A DNA stretch of 64,000 bases, from positions 80,640 through 144,639 of the forward strand of contig CAMWVQ010000001.1 in the NCBI GenBank assembly GCA_947177635.1, read 5' to 3'. This document shows, piece after piece, positions 45,712 to 60,147 of this stretch. Numbering within the stretch: position 1 is the stretch's first letter; every line of letters begins with the position of its first letter. The notes under the pieces are model-generated. The model saw only the letters and a program-made list of their open reading frames with translations. It did no database searches and was not told the DNA's origin. The DNA comes from an uncultured Porphyromonadaceae bacterium. Its GTDB lineage: Bacteria; Bacteroidota; Bacteroidia; Bacteroidales; Muribaculaceae. Position numbers and translations under genes: made by a program.

Positions 45712-47253
45712 TCATCTCTTTGTCTCGTGGTAGTCTTCCTCGGTGTTGACATTCCATATGGCGGACTTGTCGGGGTTGTGGCTTCCTGAAAGGATGGCAT
45801 CGGCGGCCTCCATAGCCGTCAGCATCGAATGGTCCATATTGTTGTAGCGGTGCTGTCCGTTGCGGCCTATGCAATAGAGATTCCCAATGCTGTCGAGGAA
45901 GGCCCTGATGGCGTGGAGTTCGGAATATGCGCCGTAATAGGCGGGATACGCCTTCTTGACCCGTATCCTGACCGCATCCTCAACATTCCGGCGGTCTATG
46001 ATGCCGATTTTCTCAAGCTCCGAGACAGCCATGTCGATGAAAGCCTTGTCTGACATCTCCCACATCGCATCCCCCTCGCGGCAGAAATATTCCAGGCCTA
46101 TCCACATCTTGCGGTCATTGTCGGCCACCATATATGGCGACCAGTTGTTGAACACCTGGATGCGCCCGAGCCTCACATCCCGCTCCTGGACATAAATCCA
46201 TGTGTCAGGGATACGGTCCCGGAAAGTCTCGATATCGGTCTGGTTGCTTATTTCAAGCTTGTCTACAAGCAGTCCGACCGTGATGAAATCCCGGTAAGGC
46301 AACTGGGCGGCTGCTTTTCTCACATTGTCAGGTATCTCAACACCTTCTATCGCGGCGATCAGGTCTTTCAGCGGCATCGACGAGAGGAGAAGGTCACACT
46401 TTTCACGATGCGAAGAACCGTCGGCACTTTCCACGGTGACGGCGACAACACGCCCATCCTCTACATGCACTTTCCTGACGCCGCAATTCATCTCCACAAG
46501 TCCACCTTTTTCACGGACCTCATCCGCGACGGTCTCCCACAGCTGTCCCGGCCCGAATTTGGGATAAACGAACTCCTCGATAAGGGATGTCTCCACCTTC
46601 CGGCCTTCTTTCTTGCCCAGCATGCTGGAAAACATATCCTTGACAACGCCGAGCAGCGACAGCCCCTTGACCCTCTGCGCGCCCCATTCGGCACCGAGGC
46701 GCGAGGGGTGCTGTCCCCACACCTTCTCGGTATAGTCCTCGAAGAACATACGGTATAGCGTCTTGCCGAAACGGTTGATGTAGAAATCCTCCAACGAAAC
46801 TTCAGGCCGCTTGACCACAGCAGATTTCAGGTAACTGAACCCCGCCGCGGCCGTCCGCGCCAGTCCGAGGTTCCTTATCGTCTGGAAACTCATCCTGACC
46901 GGATAGTCAAAAAATCGTCGCAGGTAATAGATACGGCTCACACGCCGACGTCGCAACATCGCCAGGTCTGTCTCCTCCGGATTCCCCTCCAGCGGCATGA
47001 CACGGTTCCACCATCGTGTAACCCTGTCACTCTTGCTGAAAAAACGGTGTCCCCCGATGTCGATACGGTTCCCCTTGTACAGCTCCGTACGCGATATTCC
47101 CCCGATTTTGCCGGATTCCTCAAAAACAACAGGGGTGACCTTGCCGCTGCTGGCCAGCTCATACGCGGCCGTAAGCCCGGCGGGGCCGGCCCCGGCGATA
47201 ACCGCGAGCCGCCTCTTATCTGTCTCATCCTTGTTGCTCCGACACTCTTTCAT
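45712..47253 (-). CDS. NAD(P)/FAD-dependent oxidoreductase (UDP-galactopyranose mutase-like)
   Basis: [48 protein letters not shown]. Confidence 0.8.
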
Positions 47254-47289: not shown

Positions 47290-48540
47290 TCAGGCCCAAG
47301 GAAATTTCACCGTGAAGCGTGTCAGGCCGTCTTCCACGGAGGTAGCCAGGGAGAATCGCGCGTTATGCGCCACGAGAACCTCGCGTATGAGCATCAAGCC
47401 GATTCCCTGACCGTGAGGTTTGTCGGTGAAGAAGGGGGTGAACAGCCTTGAAGCCTTTTCGGCAGAGATGCCGACCCCGTTGTCGGTCACCGTAAGTTCA
47501 TTGTCGGCTACCTTGATGGTTATCCTCCCTTGCGCGCCACCCATAAGTATGCTCTCAACCGAGTTCTTAACGATGTTGACCAGCACCTGCACCAGCAGGT
47601 CTGAGTCGCCGGATATTTCCCGGGCCTCCTCATCAAGCCCGATGAATTCCATCGCAACCCCTTTCGGCACACCGAGCGACTCCAGGAAACGCCTCTCGCC
47701 GCAGACGAGAGCCGGGAGGCTGAGCGGGCGCAGTTTTGGCGCGGGAAGTTTCACCACCTCAGCGAAACGGGCAGTGAAGGCAGACAGTTCTCCGCTACGC
47801 TGCCAGCAGGCTTTCAGCACCTCCCTGATTTCCTCATCCTCGATTTCAGGCATCGCGGTTGACAGAGCGGAAGAGAACCCGGCCATAGTGTTGTTCACCT
47901 CATGGGCCATCACCCTGATAACCTTCTCATACGCTGCACGCTCGGCGGCTGTAACCGACCCTGATATATCCTCCGCGAGATAAAACCGATGCTCCACACC
48001 ACGGTCGATGAAACTGCGGCAGGAACAACGAATCACCGCGCCAGAGGATGTGCGGTAATCACGCGACACCCCTACAGGCAAATCACAGAGGTCTTCGGGC
48101 GACAGGCCAAGCTCAACCGCAGCCGGATTCCTGACCACCTCGTGACCGTCGAAGTCGAGTATCACCACCCCGATCGGGGCCGACTCAATCAGCAGGTTCA
48201 GGAAATGGGTGCGTTCCTCATACCGTATTCTCTGCTGTTTAAGCTTCAGCAGCATCTCATTGAACACCCCGGCGATTTTGTCAACCTCAGGCTGCCCCAC
48301 ATTGCGGAGCGAACTGTTCCAGTCCTGGGCGCGAAGCATATCAAGTCCGCCCGAAAGGGTGTCGATAGGACTCAGCACCTTCCGGAAGAAGAACCATAAA
48401 AGGACACATCCGGCCACGGCGAGAAGTTCGAGCAGATAGAAACACCCGACCTCCATCTTGCCGCTGCCGAAATAAAACAGCAGCCCCCAGGGGAGCAACT
48501 GCATCACCGCCAGTATGACAAACAGATAACGGAGCCTCAT
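47290..48540 (-). CDS. NtrB/NtrY-like sensor histidine kinase
   Basis: Two TM helices, HAMP/PAS-like region, VMAHEVNNTMAGFSSAL H-box, VTDNGVGIS / GQGIGLMLIREVL ATPase motifs. Confidence 0.88.
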   Translation of the reverse strand: MRLRYLFVILAVMQLLPWGLLFYFGSGKMEVGCFYLLELLAVAGCVLLWFFFRKVLSPIDTLSGGLDMLRAQDWNSSLRNVGQPEVDKIAGVFNEMLLKLKQQRIRYEERTHFLNLLIESAPIGVVILDFDGHEVVRNPAAVELGLSPEDLCDLPVGVSRDYRTSSGAVIRCSCRSFIDRGVEHRFYLAEDISGSVTAAERAAYEKVIRVMAHEVNNTMAGFSSALSTAMPEIEDEEIREVLKACWQRSGELSAFTARFAEVVKLPAPKLRPLSLPALVCGERRFLESLGVPKGVAMEFIGLDEEAREISGDSDLLVQVLVNIVKNSVESILMGGAQGRITIKVADNELTVTDNGVGISAEKASRLFTPFFTDKPHGQGIGLMLIREVLVAHNARFSLATSVEDGLTRFTVKFPWA

Positions 48541-49871
48541 CGCAAGCCGAATTTTTCCATTTTGCGATACAGGCTCTGCCGGGTAAGCCCCAGCTCGGCG
48601 GCAGCCTTGGAGATATTCCCCTCATGGCGGCTAAGAGCGGCCTTGACGCGCGAACGCTCGACCTCCTCCAATGTGCCGCCCGACACCGGCGCGGAGCCGA
48701 CGCCTCCCGGCGGTGTCACCCCCATCGCCTCACAGTTCCTGAAATCATCAGCCGTGAGGAAATCTTTCCCTGAAATCAGCATCGTGCGCTCGACCTGGTT
48801 TTTCAGCTCACGGATGTTTCCGGGCCACGGCCGCCCGCTCAGCCACGCCTCGGCATCGGCCGAAAGACGTGGCACCTCCATTCCGTGGGCCTCCGCCCCC
48901 TTGACAAGGAAATGCCGGGCAAGCGCCGGAATGTCGCCGCTGCGCTGGCGCAACGGCGGGAGTTCGATGTTAACCAGACTTATGCGATAGAACAGGTCTT
49001 CACGGAATTCACGCGAAGCCACCATACTCGGCAAATCGGCATTGGTGGCACACACAATCCTGACATCCACTGATTTGGTCTCGCTCGACCCAAGAGGTTC
49101 GAATTTCTGCTCCTGCAAAACCCTCAGCAGCTTGACCTGCGAACCTGAATCGAGTTCTCCGATTTCGTCAAGGAAGATGGTGCCTCCATCGGCAGCCTCG
49201 AATCGCCCCACCCTGTCTGCCACCGCATCGGTGAACGCCCCTCGCTTGTGGCCGAACATCTCGCTTTCGAAAAGAGATGAGGACAGCCCCCCGAGATTGA
49301 CCTTGACAAAAGGTTTGCCGTTTCGGCGGCTGTTGCGGTGAAGGGCCTCGGCGATAAGTTCCTTGCCGGTGCCGCTCTCTCCGGTGACAAGCACCGGGGC
49401 GTTGGTGGGCGCAACCTTCGCCACCGTCTTCAACACAGCCTCAAGCCTCGGGTCAGACCCGATTATGAAGTCTCTGACAAGCCCTTCCGAAACCGGCGCC
49501 GGGCGCTGCATCTCCAACGCGACACCGATTCGTTCCAACAGGCGCCGGTTGTCCCACGGCTTGGTGATGAAATCGAAAGCCCCGGCCCGCATACCCTCGA
49601 CGGCAAGCTCGATGGAGCCCCACGCGGTCATCAGTATCACCGGCAGGGATGGGTGGAAGAGCTTTATCTGCCTGAGAAGGGTCAACCCCTCCTCCCCCGA
49701 GGTGAAACGGGAGAAATTCATATCGAGAAGCACCAGGGAGGGGGCCTGCTTCCTGACCTGCTCCATCGCCTCGGCGGGAGAGGCCGCGAACCTCGTGGCG
49801 TAACCCGCCCTGCGCGTCAGCAACGCGAGGGATGAACGGATTGCGGCATCATCGTCAACTATCAGAATCAT
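48537..49871 (-). CDS. NtrC-family sigma-54-dependent response regulator
   Basis: Receiver (MILIVDDDAAIRSSL), AAA+ GESGTGKELIAEALHRNS, GAFTDA (sigma-54 contact loop), C-terminal Fis-like HTH. Confidence 0.95.
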   Translation of the reverse strand: MILIVDDDAAIRSSLALLTRRAGYATRFAASPAEAMEQVRKQAPSLVLLDMNFSRFTSGEEGLTLLRQIKLFHPSLPVILMTAWGSIELAVEGMRAGAFDFITKPWDNRRLLERIGVALEMQRPAPVSEGLVRDFIIGSDPRLEAVLKTVAKVAPTNAPVLVTGESGTGKELIAEALHRNSRRNGKPFVKVNLGGLSSSLFESEMFGHKRGAFTDAVADRVGRFEAADGGTIFLDEIGELDSGSQVKLLRVLQEQKFEPLGSSETKSVDVRIVCATNADLPSMVASREFREDLFYRISLVNIELPPLRQRSGDIPALARHFLVKGAEAHGMEVPRLSADAEAWLSGRPWPGNIRELKNQVERTMLISGKDFLTADDFRNCEAMGVTPPGGVGSAPVSGGTLEEVERSRVKAALSRHEGNISKAAAELGLTRQSLYRKMEKFGLR

Positions 49872-52763: not shown

Positions 52764-54044
52764 TTATTCAATGTTTGATATGACAGGTTTGCGCAATGAG
52801 AACCATGCAGGAACCAAAGCCGAAAGTATGTTGAGAACCACACACAGCAGGAACGCCACGATAAAAATTGCCGGGGCATAGAGGATTTCGGGGGTGAGGT
52901 TGAAGGAAACCACTTCGTTGGAATTATTACTGTCAAGGAGTGTCAGCAACTGCCCGGAGGAAGATAGGACGCAGAGCCATACGATGACAAGCCCCAATAC
53001 GCCTCCGGAAATTGTCAGAACCAAGTTTTCCCACAGCACCTGTTTCAGAAGCTGAAAACGGGTTCCACCAAACGAGCGACGTATCCCTATCTCGGATGAA
53101 CGCATATCCATACGGCTCGAAATCAGACCGCTCAGGTTAAGGGCAGGAATCAGCAGCAACACCAACAGAATCAGCAGATTCTTTTTCACCACCGACCGGA
53201 TAGGCACAAACTCCTCTTGGTATATACCTGAGTTGAACACATTCACAATATGGGAACGAGGCAAATCAAGGAAACCCACTTCATAATCCGGATTCGAGCT
53301 GTTGAATTTACGGGCTATCTCATCAACCTCCTCTTTCAAGGCTTTGCCGTCGTCGGAGACAAAAGTCACGGAAACCCCTCCCACAAACGGGCGCCACTCC
53401 TCGTCGTACTCCTCATCAGTCGTTAGCGGCAGAATCACCTGGGCGTATGAGTCCGGCAGAAGCTGACTGCCCTCCCTGAAAACCCCGCATACGCGGTATT
53501 CCTGATAGTTGAGGCTGAATGTGCGCCCGACGATGCCGGTATCTGTACCGAATATATCCATTGCCAGCCGGTCGGAGATTGCTCCGGTAAGCACACCTCC
53601 TTCGAATTCCTCCGCAGTGAATGGTCTGCCTTCCAGAAAGTCATATTCATACAGCTTGAAAAATTCCGGGTCTGTCAACTTCAAGTCGACCTCGATTTCC
53701 CGGTCATCTCCTGGCAGCTGGACATAATCATCCCATCCGGAGGTTTCCGCACTGACAATTGACGCGCTTTTCAACTTCCGCAAGTGATCCCTCACAAGAG
53801 GATAGCTGGGATTGCTGACATTCTTGCGGGGGCTCCCCTTCTCTCCATTCTCGATATACCTGAGATAATATGTCTTCATACGATTGAATTCAGGGTATAT
53901 CGGCGCGACCTTGACATAGTAGATGAGGGCGAACAATGTAGTGGTGGCGATGGCCAAAGCTGTCCCGCAGATATATATCGCGGAAAACAGCTTGTTGGCC
54001 AGCATCATGCGCCACGCTTGTTTTACATAAAAAGATAGTCTCAT
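52764..54044 (-). CDS. MacB/FtsX-type ABC transporter permease
   Basis: LFSAIYICGTALAIATTTLFALIYYVKVAPIYPE; MDMRSSEIGIRRSFGGTRFQLLKQVLWENLVLT; ATG 54044 preferred. Confidence 0.85.
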   Translation of the reverse strand: MRLSFYVKQAWRMMLANKLFSAIYICGTALAIATTTLFALIYYVKVAPIYPEFNRMKTYYLRYIENGEKGSPRKNVSNPSYPLVRDHLRKLKSASIVSAETSGWDDYVQLPGDDREIEVDLKLTDPEFFKLYEYDFLEGRPFTAEEFEGGVLTGAISDRLAMDIFGTDTGIVGRTFSLNYQEYRVCGVFREGSQLLPDSYAQVILPLTTDEEYDEEWRPFVGGVSVTFVSDDGKALKEEVDEIARKFNSSNPDYEVGFLDLPRSHIVNVFNSGIYQEEFVPIRSVVKKNLLILLVLLLIPALNLSGLISSRMDMRSSEIGIRRSFGGTRFQLLKQVLWENLVLTISGGVLGLVIVWLCVLSSSGQLLTLLDSNNSNEVVSFNLTPEILYAPAIFIVAFLLCVVLNILSALVPAWFSLRKPVISNIE

Positions 54045-54097
54045 AATTATGGCGGGGAGAGTTTTGTTTGGACGAATGGGAAAAGGGGGGAAGGAAA

Positions 54098-54766
54098 TCA
54101 CAATACCAGGTGGCCGTCGAAGAGATGGATGACACGGTCGGTGTCTCTGGCCTGGGCTTCGTTGTGGGTCACCATTATTATGGTCTTACCTTCCCGGTTG
54201 AGTCCGTGGAGAAGCTGCATCACCTCCTCGCTCATCTTTGAGTCGAGGTTGCCGGTAGGTTCGTCGGCCAGGATTATGGATGGATTCCCCACTATCGCAC
54301 GGGCGATGGCCACACGCTGGGCCTGGCCGCCTGACAGCTGGGAGGGGAAATGGGTGGTGCGGTGTGAAAGCCCTACCTTTTCGAGGGCCTCGCGGGCAAG
54401 TTTCCGGCGGTCTCCGGCCCCCTTGCGGTAGGTCAGGGGCACCATCACGTTGTCAATCACGTTGAGCGTCGGTATCAGATGGAAGCTCTGGAAGACGAAG
54501 CCGAGATTCTCGTTGCGGAACCGGGCCATTTCTTTGTCGCGCAGCCCTACAAGCTGTTTCCCGAAAAGTTTTATCTCCCCTCCCGAGGGACGGTCGAGCA
54601 GCCCGATGATGTTGAGCAGGGTTGACTTGCCGCAGCCTGAGGGGCCCATTATCGAGAGGAATTCACCTTTGTTGACTTCAAGATTGATTCCTTCGAGAGC
54701 CTGGGTCTCGATGGTCTTGGTTGTGTAGACTTTGCTGATGTCTGTGAGTTTGATGACAGTTTCCAT
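54098..54766 (-). CDS. MacB/LolD-type ABC transporter ATP-binding protein
   Basis: GPSGCGKSTLLNIIGLLDRPSGGEI, LSGGQAQRVAIARAIVGNPSIILADEPTGNLDS. Confidence 0.95.
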   Translation of the reverse strand: METVIKLTDISKVYTTKTIETQALEGINLEVNKGEFLSIMGPSGCGKSTLLNIIGLLDRPSGGEIKLFGKQLVGLRDKEMARFRNENLGFVFQSFHLIPTLNVIDNVMVPLTYRKGAGDRRKLAREALEKVGLSHRTTHFPSQLSGGQAQRVAIARAIVGNPSIILADEPTGNLDSKMSEEVMQLLHGLNREGKTIIMVTHNEAQARDTDRVIHLFDGHLVL

Positions 54767-56150: not shown

Positions 56151-57434
56151 TTATTTGAGACAGTTGGTGATCTGTTTGCGGATTGAGAACCACGCGGGGA
56201 TGAGGGCTGAGAAAAGGTTGAGAATCACACACAGCAGGAAGGCTGTGGCGAACACCGCCGGGGCGAAAAGTATGCCTGAGGTCAGAGCCGAGGATGTGGC
56301 AACCGAGTCGACCTCCTCATTCATTATAGTCAGCAGCGAGCCGGAGGTGGCCCAAAGGCTGAACCAGACAATCAAAAGGCCCACGAAACCTCCCGCGAGG
56401 GTGAGGAACAGGTTTTCCCACAACACCTGGCCGAGGAGCCTCGGTCTGGTAGCCCCGAAGGAACGCCTGACTCCAAGTTCGGAGGAACGCATGTCCATAC
56501 GGCTTGAGATAAGGCCGCTCAGGTTGAGCGCGGGTACGAGCAGCAAGACAAGCAACACAAGCAGGTTCTGGCGCAGGATGCTCTTCCAGGTCACTGTGTC
56601 TTCTACCCTGTCGGGGTTTATCGCCCAGGCCAGGTGAGGTTTCGGGAAATCGAAGAAGTCGACCTCCTCATCGGTCTGCGAGCTGTTGTATTTACGGGCG
56701 ATTTCGTGTATCTCCTCACTCAGGGCGTCTCCGTCTGAGGCGGTAATCGTCACCACCATCGATCCGATGAATGTGGCGCGGTCATTGTTGTAGTTTCGGT
56801 CGGTGGTGTATGGCATGATTACTTCGGCGTATGAATCGGAAAGCAGCGAGCTCCCTGACTCGATTACCCCGACGATACGGAAATCACGGAAATTGATTTT
56901 CAGGGTCTTCCCCACTACTCCGGTCTCGCTCCCGAACATCCTGAGGGCGGTCTCTCCGGTGATAACGGCCACAGGTGTCCCGGCCGCCAGGTCATCTTCG
57001 GAGAATGGGCCTCCTTCGATGAAATGATAGGGGTAAATCTCAAAATACGCCGGGTCGGTCTTGCGGGTGGAAATCTTGATGTCCTGGAGGGTCTCGGGAT
57101 GCTGGGCGTAAATCTGCGGCATCCACTCGTCGTAAGTGGCAGACACATGTTCGGCACTTTTCAGTTTGTAGAGATGGTCTCTGACAAGGTCATAGCCCAG
57201 GCAGCTCTGCATCATGTGTCCGGTGCTGCGGATGGAGTTCTGCACACTGCGGAAATAATATGTCTCCATGCGGTTGGTCTCGGGATATATCGGCGCGATC
57301 TTGACATAATATATCACAGCGAAGAGGGTGGTCGTGGCTATCGCCAGGGCTGTCCCGCTTATGTATATCGCCGAGAAAAGCTTGTTGGCGAGCATCAGCC
57401 GCCAGGCTTGTCTGATGTGGGTAGTGATTGACAT
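56151..57434 (-). CDS. MacB/FtsX-type ABC transporter permease (paralogue of 52764-54044)
   Basis: QAWRLMLANKLFSAIYISGTALAIATTTLFAVIYYVKIAPIYPETNRMETYYFR parallels the 54044-start gene. Confidence 0.87.
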   Translation of the reverse strand: MSITTHIRQAWRLMLANKLFSAIYISGTALAIATTTLFAVIYYVKIAPIYPETNRMETYYFRSVQNSIRSTGHMMQSCLGYDLVRDHLYKLKSAEHVSATYDEWMPQIYAQHPETLQDIKISTRKTDPAYFEIYPYHFIEGGPFSEDDLAAGTPVAVITGETALRMFGSETGVVGKTLKINFRDFRIVGVIESGSSLLSDSYAEVIMPYTTDRNYNNDRATFIGSMVVTITASDGDALSEEIHEIARKYNSSQTDEEVDFFDFPKPHLAWAINPDRVEDTVTWKSILRQNLLVLLVLLLVPALNLSGLISSRMDMRSSELGVRRSFGATRPRLLGQVLWENLFLTLAGGFVGLLIVWFSLWATSGSLLTIMNEEVDSVATSSALTSGILFAPAVFATAFLLCVILNLFSALIPAWFSIRKQITNCLK

Positions 57435-57460: not shown

Positions 57461-58714
57461 TTATTTACGCAGGTTGATACGGCGGGAGTTGCCGAATGAG
57501 GCGGTCGAGGAGGCCACAACCTCATCGCCGGGTTGCATTCCGCTTACGACCTCTATGTAGTCGTAACCGGCGCTGCCGAGCTTCACACTGCGGCGTTCGA
57601 GGTAAGAGGCCCCCTTTGGCCTTACATACAGGGTGTAATTGTTCGGGCCGGTGTAAAACGACAGGTTCGGAATCCTGACCACCCCCTCTTTCACACCGTT
57701 GGAAATCTTTATGTCGGTCTTCACTCCGGGGCGCAACGATGGCAGGCTGTCATTGTCAAGGGTCACTTTGACCTCGATCATCCCGTTGACGGCCGTCGGG
57801 GCGACAGAGCTGACAAATCCTTCGGTATGGTTGCGGCCGAAAGAGATGTGGGTGCGGCTGCCTGCCCTAACCTCCTGGGCGGTGCTCTCGGTGATTGTCG
57901 CGTCAATCCGGTAATGTCCCAGGTCGGCGATGACGGCCACCTGCTGTCCCTGGCTGACGGTAGTGCCGAGGCGGTCTGAGATAGACGTCACCGTGGCGCG
58001 GCGCGGCGACCTGATTTCGGCGTCGGCCAGTATCCGGCTTGTCTGGGCGAGGTTGTTCTCTTTTATTGAAATCTCCAGCAGTTTGGCGTCACCCTCGGCC
58101 CTGAGCATCCGTTGTTCGTTGGCAAGCTGTTCGCGCAGCTGCTCAAGCTCGAGACGCTGGGTGCGCAAGGCGAACTCCGCCTCACGGACACGGTCGGTCG
58201 TTCCGCTTCCGATACTGTCGAGGTAACGCTCGTTGGCAAGCTCCACCTCCTGGCGGCGCAGCTTCATGTCGGCCACCTTTATCTGCATCTTCAGGTCTGA
58301 GAGGCGCGTCATATGCGAGGCCTGAAGTCTCTGGTATTCAAGACGCATCATCGCGAGCTCGTCGCGTTCGGCAGCCTCGCGGGTGGAGGCCTCCCCGAGA
58401 TCGAGTTTCAGCAACGGGGTACCGGCATCCACGATGTCGCCGCTATGGTGATACACCTCAAGGATGCGCGAGTTCACAGGCGACACTATCACCTCCTCGA
58501 AAGCTGCCACAATCGTGCCGTTTCCATTCACGGCGGCATCGATGTCTCCCCGGTCAGCAGCAGAAAGCCTGATGTCGGCGAGGTTGACGCTCTCCTCTGT
58601 CAGCGAGCCTATACCTATCACCGCCCCCGCCGCCAGCGCGACAGCCGCTCCCCCAAGGAGCCACCGCCGGCGCCGGCGCTGCTTCAGCTTCTGTTTCGGA
58701 ATTTCTCTATCCAT
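57461..58714 (-). CDS. HlyD/RND-type periplasmic adaptor
   Basis: N-terminal TM, coiled coil, VYHHSGDIVDAGTPLLKLD and AEIRSPRRATVTSISDRLGTTVSQGQQVAVIAD. Confidence 0.88.
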   Translation of the reverse strand: MDREIPKQKLKQRRRRRWLLGGAAVALAAGAVIGIGSLTEESVNLADIRLSAADRGDIDAAVNGNGTIVAAFEEVIVSPVNSRILEVYHHSGDIVDAGTPLLKLDLGEASTREAAERDELAMMRLEYQRLQASHMTRLSDLKMQIKVADMKLRRQEVELANERYLDSIGSGTTDRVREAEFALRTQRLELEQLREQLANEQRMLRAEGDAKLLEISIKENNLAQTSRILADAEIRSPRRATVTSISDRLGTTVSQGQQVAVIADLGHYRIDATITESTAQEVRAGSRTHISFGRNHTEGFVSSVAPTAVNGMIEVKVTLDNDSLPSLRPGVKTDIKISNGVKEGVVRIPNLSFYTGPNNYTLYVRPKGASYLERRSVKLGSAGYDYIEVVSGMQPGDEVVASSTASFGNSRRINLRK

Positions 58715-58771: not shown

Positions 58772-59929
58772 TCATAATGCCAGATATCGTTTGTCTGCTT
58801 TGTCGGCCCTGGTGATACGGAGGTTGCCCTGCTCCCCATTGCTGACACATATCTGGCTGTCCCAGCTTCCACGGGTGAACTTGAACTCAGCCGGCAGGGT
58901 CAGACTCAGGTCAATCACTTTGGTAGAACCGTCTATGGTTTGCATCTTTATCCCTTGCGGGTTCCAGTTGGCAAGGGCCTCCTGGTTGCCAGTTATATAT
59001 ATGTCACCATTCATATCGCTGCCTGAAAGCTCAATATGCACAGCCACCGGCTCCGAGCCGGAGTGAGAAGTTTCCGAACTACGGAATTTTGCATATTCAG
59101 CCAATGTTTGCGTCAACGCGGGCAGCACAGACTGGCTATGGTCATATTCCGGGAACTCGGAGACTCGGACGACCACTCCGGCAGGAAACTTCAAGGAGTC
59201 AGTGAAGGCCTTGACTTTCCGCCACGCGTTGCCCCATTGCTCCCCCCACATATTGGCCGCGTCGCCGACCTCGTCGGCCATTGTGAGGCAGATGAAACGG
59301 GAATCACCGTTTTTTGAGAAATCATAACTCAAAAATTCGTCGGCAAACCGATCGTTGTCCCAGGAAAAGTTTGGAGACATCGCTATGCAGTCGTCAAACA
59401 TTTCGTCACTCACCATTGCATCGATGATGAACGAGGCTCCCAGAGAATGCCCCACGGCAAGTGTGCGCCCTGTCGTGCGGTAATTGGAGTCAATCCAAGG
59501 CATCAACTCCCCACTGATGAATCTCTTGAATTCTGAGGAATTACCATAATAAATGTAATCCGAAGGAAGTTCCATTGACTGTGGCACAGGAAGGAAATCA
59601 TTGTTGCGGTTGTAATCCTCCTCCTGAGGAGACGCAATGCCGACCACAATATAGTTTCTCAGGTCATCGATTCCATATTGGGCAAAATAATGCATCAGGG
59701 ATGTCACAAGGTCGAAACGTTCTCTCCACTGGCTGTCAAACACATAAATGACATCATAATCGGTCTGGGTCATCTCGTCATATTGCACGGGAGTGTAGAT
59801 GAGAATATTGCGCGGATACCTTACCATATCCGATGTGAATTCTTTCTCAATTACACGGGCTGTCGGCTGGGCAAGCGAAGCCATGCACCCTGAAATAAGG
59901 CAGATGATGAATGGAACTATTTTTTTCAT
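58772..59929 (-). CDS. Secreted esterase (alpha/beta hydrolase) with C-terminal CBM20-like module
   Basis: Signal/lipobox-like ISGCMASLAQ; AVGHSLGASFI nucleophile elbow; C-terminal VHIELSGSDMNGDIYITGNQEALANWNPQGIKMQ...AEFKFTRGSWD. Confidence 0.7.
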   Translation of the reverse strand: MKKIVPFIICLISGCMASLAQPTARVIEKEFTSDMVRYPRNILIYTPVQYDEMTQTDYDVIYVFDSQWRERFDLVTSLMHYFAQYGIDDLRNYIVVGIASPQEEDYNRNNDFLPVPQSMELPSDYIYYGNSSEFKRFISGELMPWIDSNYRTTGRTLAVGHSLGASFIIDAMVSDEMFDDCIAMSPNFSWDNDRFADEFLSYDFSKNGDSRFICLTMADEVGDAANMWGEQWGNAWRKVKAFTDSLKFPAGVVVRVSEFPEYDHSQSVLPALTQTLAEYAKFRSSETSHSGSEPVAVHIELSGSDMNGDIYITGNQEALANWNPQGIKMQTIDGSTKVIDLSLTLPAEFKFTRGSWDSQICVSNGEQGNLRITRADKADKRYLAL

Positions 59930-59981
59930 ATTTATTGATTGTTTTGTTTAATCCGGACAATGCCCGGGCTGCATAATATGT

Positions 59982-59997
59982 TTCAAACACCGTGCCA
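59982..59997 (-). promoter_or_regulatory. Candidate sigma-54 promoter (TGGCACGGTGTTTGAA)
   Basis: Matches TGGCACG-N4-TTGC-W except C-to-A in the -12 GC; about 53 nt upstream of the esterase start. Confidence 0.5.
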
Positions 59998-60043
59998 AAA
60001 CACTCAATACACTATTAATCACAGAGTTACCACTCAGGCAACG

Positions 60044-60089
60044 TGTACGAAATCGGACATCATATGGTTTTTCCGTACATTCCGTACAT
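60044..60089. promoter_or_regulatory. Candidate enhancer-binding sites upstream of the sigma-54 box
   Basis: TGTACGAAAT (60044-60053) and ATTCCGTACA (60079-60088) form a 9/10 inverted repeat; extra CCGTACAT copy at 60073-60080. Confidence 0.4.
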
Positions 60090-60115: not shown

Positions 60116-60147
60116 TTTGCATATTCCGTTGATAATTCGTAACTTTG
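60116..60147 (+). promoter_or_regulatory. Bacteroidetes promoter for rplM operon
   Basis: TTTG (60116-60119), 20-nt spacer, TAACTTTG (60140-60147). Confidence 0.75.

Follow-up and report, generated by a model that had tools for sequence, protein, structure and literature searches.

We asked how transcription of a long run of minus-strand export genes is controlled in the window (the whole 64-kb stretch of DNA that was analysed), and whether the NtrC-type regulator encoded near the end of this run could act on its beginning. The sequence makes it highly likely that an enhancer-dependent sigma-54 promoter drives this MacAB-TolC-like operon, whose genes include that of its own activator. This reading agrees with a preliminary description of the locus and is supported by the presence of rpoN, by a promoter geometry that is conserved in relatives and by the position of the regulator in the same gene run.

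The export operon and its putative regulator

The genes of the run lie on the same strand, in the order esterase, HlyD, two permeases, ATPase, two permeases, TolC, regulator, kinase and then an amine-oxidase-like gene:

58772-59929, minus strand: secreted IroE-like esterase, 385 aa (GHSLG at residue 160, signal-peptide-like N terminus, CBM20-like C terminus)
57461-58714, minus strand: HlyD-type adaptor
56151-57434, minus strand: MacB/FtsX permease P1
54815-56137, minus strand: MacB/FtsX permease P2
54098-54766, minus strand: ABC ATPase, a separate 222-aa protein
52764-54101, minus strand: MacB/FtsX permease P3
51418-52746, minus strand: FtsX permease P4
49915-51411, minus strand: TolC-type outer-membrane efflux protein
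48537-49871, minus strand: NtrC-family response regulator (receiver, AAA+ with GAFTDA loop, Fis-type HTH)
47290-48540, minus strand: HAMP histidine kinase, overlapping the regulator by 4 bp
45712-47253, minus strand: flavin amine-oxidase-like gene, 36 bp after the kinase

TolC and the regulator are separated by 43 bp, and the divergent upstream neighbour on the plus strand is the ribosomal run rplM-rpsI-rpsB-tsf. The MacAB-TolC tripartite exporter consists of an HlyD adaptor, a MacB/FtsX permease, an ABC ATPase and TolC. The window operon resembles it in holding an HlyD adaptor, MacB-type permeases, an ABC ATPase and TolC all together, but differs in that ATPase and permeases are separate, that there are four permeases, and that an esterase stands in front and a two-component system behind. 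Since the ATPase is a separate protein and is not fused to a permease in the manner of MacB, the exporter was classified as MacB-like and not as MacB itself. Gene content at the edges of the operon varied among relatives: P3 and P4 (51418-54101), intact in the window, are reduced to a short fused remnant in G008 (L169:8719-9261) and are missing in G004 and L053, while homologues of the amine-oxidase-like gene occupy the same place in G008 and G004, with none found in L053.

The preliminary description had placed an NtrC-type regulator and its kinase in the same gene run, and the domains agree with this: the regulator carries a receiver (PF00072), an AAA+ sigma-54 interaction domain (PF00158) and a Fis-type HTH (PF02954), the recognition helix of the latter being strongly conserved across the family. 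The loop of the AAA+ domain reads GAFTDA and not GAFTGA, as it also does in 56 of 80 relatives, and GAFTDA is listed among the variants of activators regarded as functional (PMC4641369). The genome also encodes RpoN (PF04552 at E=1.4e-42, with an intact RpoN box ARRTVAKYRE), on whose presence the promoter assignment had been made to depend.

Elements of the predicted promoter

Inspection of the region between the esterase and rplM yielded the following features:

60117-60147, plus strand: sigma-A-type promoter TTG-N20-TAACTTTG of the divergent rplM (consensus match only)
60083-60088: further half-site, TGTACG on the minus strand
60074-60079: half-site, TGTACG on the minus strand, possible second activator site
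60059-60044, minus strand: putative activator palindrome TGTCCGATTTCGTACA, 16 bp, 46 bp upstream of the sigma-54 box
60021-60005, minus strand: IHF-like element TGATTAATAGTGTATTG, matching 11 of 13 positions of TGATTATCAR-N4-TTR, upstream of the -24 box
59997-59982, minus strand: sigma-54 box TGGCACGGTGTTTGAA, with the -24 GG at 59996-59995 and the -12 pair GA at 59984-59983
59971, minus strand: predicted +1 of transcription, set by sigma-54 geometry at 12 nt past the -12 position

The near-consensus sigma-54 box with a single deviation, noted earlier, was thus recovered: TGGCACGGTGTTTGAA agrees with the consensus TGGCACRNNNNTTGCW at 15 of 16 positions and has the -24 and -12 elements 10 bp apart, the -12 GC reading GA. 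A transcript from the predicted start would have a leader of about 42 nt before the esterase ATG at 59929. A search of the minus strand between esterase and rplM gave no consensus match to a sigma-A-type promoter. The sigma-A-type match of rplM on the other strand comes within 40 bp of the activator half-sites.

Taken alone, the 16-mer TGGCACGGTGTTTGAA occurs at chance frequency. With up to two mismatches the box was matched 17 times in the window (16.6 expected), and with up to one mismatch 29 times genome-wide, compared to 31 times for the reversed pattern. Searching by the box alone therefore returned only chance-level matches and was given up.

The inverted repeats reported upstream of the box were there in part. 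On the plus strand there are indeed half-sites of the form TGTACG/CGKACA at 60044-60049, 60054-60059, 60074-60079 and 60083-60088, but the proposed pairing of TGTACGAAAT with ATTCCGTACA joins halves of two different sites, and what is conserved in relatives is instead the 16-bp palindrome TGTCCGATTTCGTACA at 60044-60059. In the family this palindrome reads TGTCCG-N4-CGGACA and lies mostly 43-46 bp upstream of the box; the window copy has one changed half (CGTACA). It is the sole perfect TGTMCG-N4-CGKACA in the 2.64-Mb genome. None of the one-mismatch palindromes elsewhere in this genome has a good sigma-54 box downstream, so no second regulon member was found there. The two outer half-sites are located about 20 and 29 bp further upstream, near the place of a second site in many relatives, 63-65 bp from the box.

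Conservation of the composite promoter in relatives

We then compared the promoter across an orthologue set of 80 contigs or loci carrying a relative of the NtrC-type regulator. Boxes with at most one mismatch were found 64 times in these loci and 17 times in reversed DNA; 17 of the 64 were perfect, and many stood directly ahead of the first exporter gene. The scan for the repeat in orthologous promoters, proposed in the preliminary description, gave 81 pairs of palindrome (TGTMCG-N4-CGKACA) and box, spread over 54 loci; reversed DNA gave 3 pairs, and 6 had the two elements in inverted order. Spacing between palindrome and box was quantised, nearly all pairs falling into narrow classes of 31, 43-46, 53-54 and 63-65 bp. 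A second promoter class was observed ahead of TolC in Bacteroides-type loci (L055, L056, L058, L061, L062, L063, L066, L070, L073 and L132), with palindromes at 31 and 54 bp from the box and without the IHF-like element.

A strict composite (palindrome, 42-47 bp, then TGGCA as a looser -24 element) occurred 26 times in 119 genomes of the family, compared to no occurrence of the reversed pattern, so that conservation of the box in related species, which had been named as a check, was confirmed with the same geometry. A strict composite sought across the order, without this loosening of the -24 element, matched just 2 of 295 genomes drawn evenly from it. Among 28 loci taken from pattern searches, 25 had HlyD or, in the window genome, the esterase as the gene directly downstream.

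When 72 non-redundant promoters were aligned on the -24 box, the motif TGATTATCAR-N4-TTR appeared at one fixed place. It contains the IHF consensus WATCARN4TTR, which was perfect in 23 of the 72 promoters (0.5 expected with shuffled linkers), and 46 of 59 matches to this consensus with at most one mismatch start at the identical position. In the window the element stands where expected, with two mismatches, a quality that shuffled linkers equal about 0.04 times per 72 promoters. We propose 60021-60005, from its motif, as a candidate IHF-like site for a DNA-bending protein of the HU/IHF family, two genes of which are present in the genome. Ten promoters with the 31-bp spacing lack the element, none of them showing a match with fewer than five mismatches, which fits the notion that a bend might be needed only at longer palindrome-box spacing. 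As judged from these comparisons, the 110 bases before the operon hold a predicted activator site, a bend-like site and a promoter at fixed positions, and this arrangement is repeated before the corresponding operon of dozens of related species. Because the switch recurs in this way, it is very probable that the operon is activated by the regulator that it encodes towards its end.

Might another enhancer-binding protein activate a genuine sigma-54 promoter here, the linked regulator acting elsewhere? Besides the linked regulator, the genome does encode at least one clear sigma-54 activator; it lies on contig C80 and adjoins unrelated genes, and no receiver domain was seen in the open reading frame read. 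Moreover, the linked regulator (E <= 1e-130) was found in 22 of 25 genomes with the composite, compared to 22 of 94 without it (Fisher p=4.5e-9, relatedness not corrected), and the palindrome stays ahead of the exporter in L107 and L129, where the regulator is divergent. We thus regard activation by another protein as unlikely. The arrangement in L107 and L129 also implies that feedback by co-transcription is not universal.

Activation by the linked regulator could proceed as follows. The membrane kinase (47290-48540) would sense a signal and phosphorylate the regulator (48537-49871), which would bind as a dimer to the palindrome at 60059-60044, the upstream half-sites probably aiding assembly. 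Bending at 60021-60005 by an HU/IHF-family protein would bring the regulator to RNA polymerase-sigma-54 at 59997-59982, where its AAA+ ATPase would remodel the holoenzyme and open the promoter for transcription from near 59971. A single transcript would then extend from the acquired esterase through the exporter and TolC genes to the regulator and kinase, so that the operon would feed back positively on itself. In this scheme the binding of the regulator, the bend, the start site, the co-transcription of the genes and the nature of the signal are all inferred from sequence; by analogy with MacB-type exporters, our guess is that membrane-active compounds are the signal. Counting against the scheme are the A in place of the -12 C, the changed half of the palindrome, the two mismatches of the IHF-like copy and the GAFTDA loop.

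The slight departures of palindrome, IHF-like site and -12 from consensus could also mean that the promoter serves only the older export operon, that the esterase and the operon need a housekeeping promoter as well, and that the window box is decaying. However, the nearest relatives also have GA at -12: the 16-mer is identical in L053/L135 and reads TGGCACGGTCTTTGAG in G008 and TGGTATGATATTTGAC in G004. Box and palindrome survive within otherwise diverged DNA, and the minus strand of the intergenic region lacks a sigma-A-type element. This reading is accordingly very unlikely. In 69 promoters picked by palindrome, spacing and -24 element, without regard to -12, this position read TTGC in 31, TTGT in 14 and TTGA in 8. 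Since GA is common to the nearest relatives, the C-to-A change is a clade trait, ordinary in this family of exporter-operon promoters, and not damage to the window copy.

The GAFTDA loop was considered as a cause of the -12 change and rejected, since regulators of either loop type, GAFTDA or GAFTGA, are found with C, with A and with T at that position. GAFTGA regulators were more often accompanied by a degenerate -12 TTG, which is intact in 35 of 36 cases with GAFTDA and 6 of 13 with GAFTGA (p=1e-4, relatives counted as independent).

That box and repeats match by chance and have no role, as the frequency of the single 16-mer might suggest, is effectively refuted for the promoter family by a composite conserved far above its controls; for the window copy, which fits the spacing of the composite, it is highly improbable.

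Known promoters, the probable gain of the esterase and possible dual-use terminators

Classical NtrC/NifA-type promoters comprise an upstream activator site, an intervening IHF site and a downstream sigma-54 box, and are served by a two-component activator. The window promoter shows the same order of elements and the same kind of activator, but here the palindrome is close to the promoter, its distance from the box is quantised into classes, and the bend-like element directly adjoins the -24 region. For Bacteroidia, sigma-54 control of FtsX-type ABC permeases (COG0577) has been predicted in bulk by scoring matrices (PMC12316311). That study concerns the same phylum class, sigma factor and transporter type as the window operon, but reports enrichment by gene family only, whereas we describe regulator, operator, spacing and bend-like element for one operon family; TGTCCG was looked for in it and not found. 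In Flavobacterium psychrophilum, sigma-54 promoters (motif SM4) have experimental 5'-end support, with reporter mutagenesis at one operon (PMC9723704). They likewise are Bacteroidota -24/-12 promoters with envelope-related targets, but the genes differ, and the passages on SM4 name no activator site (PMC9723704). Bulk prediction for FtsX permeases and Bacteroidota sigma-54 promoters were thus already known, while no report of the operator TGTCCG-N4-CGGACA was found in the literature searched, which took in few subscription papers. Little literature on sigma-54 activators was found for gut Bacteroidales, for whose widespread export system our data suggest a concrete regulatory rule consisting of regulator, operator, spacing, bend-like site and sigma-54 box.

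The term esterase/export operon, used in the preliminary description, held for the window genome but not for relatives: between promoter and HlyD the esterase is present only in the window genome and absent in G008, G004 and L053/L135. In G008, whose HlyD is 90% identical, the DNA is 97% identical to the window from 60108 outward through rplM-rpsI; beyond a diverged stretch that keeps both palindrome and sigma-54 box, HlyD follows the promoter directly. The HlyD leader ATACACTAAAGATT still stands directly ahead of HlyD in the window. The simplest history is that the esterase gene, which matches IroE-like hydrolases, was inserted between HlyD and a promoter already in place and so came into the regulon; that every relative has lost it is conceivable but less parsimonious. 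Insertion behind an established promoter may thus be a way for an incoming gene to enter a regulon. Esterase orthologues were uninformative as a guide to the promoter, the 50-53% homologues lying in other contexts. A homologous esterase gene in G007 and G008 (L039, L040) is probably regulated differently, because its leader is not the same and contains a long inverted repeat (CCATACCCAAAAGTGTA ... TACACTTTTGGGTATGG in G008).

In 22 of about 64 promoters, the arms of the palindrome reach 4-14 bp past the 16-bp core, frequently with a T-run after them, so that the palindrome is nested in a longer stem (L057:903, L067:3674, L076:8325, L077:2987, L093:3796, L100:3357 and others). Terminator-like hairpins were predicted in L077 (-25.8 kcal/mol, z = -7.4) and L100 (-27.6 kcal/mol, z = -8.5). 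As would be expected, the window palindrome, whose neighbour is divergent, shows no arm extension; it folds at only -11.4 kcal/mol (z = -0.6). Among promoters with a neighbour that could be scored by codon usage, the upstream gene was co-directional in 18 of 19 extended and 16 of 36 unextended cases (p = 3e-4), and a T-run of at least 4 followed the palindrome in 12 of 19 and 4 of 36, respectively (p = 1e-4); related species are not independent, which makes both p-values optimistic. We tentatively propose, at slightly short of an even chance, that in about one-third of the orthologous promoters, the window not being among them, the same palindrome serves in the DNA as the enhancer site and in the RNA as the stem of an intrinsic terminator that closes the co-directional gene before it. 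The same bases would then carry readthrough insulation and activation of the export operon.
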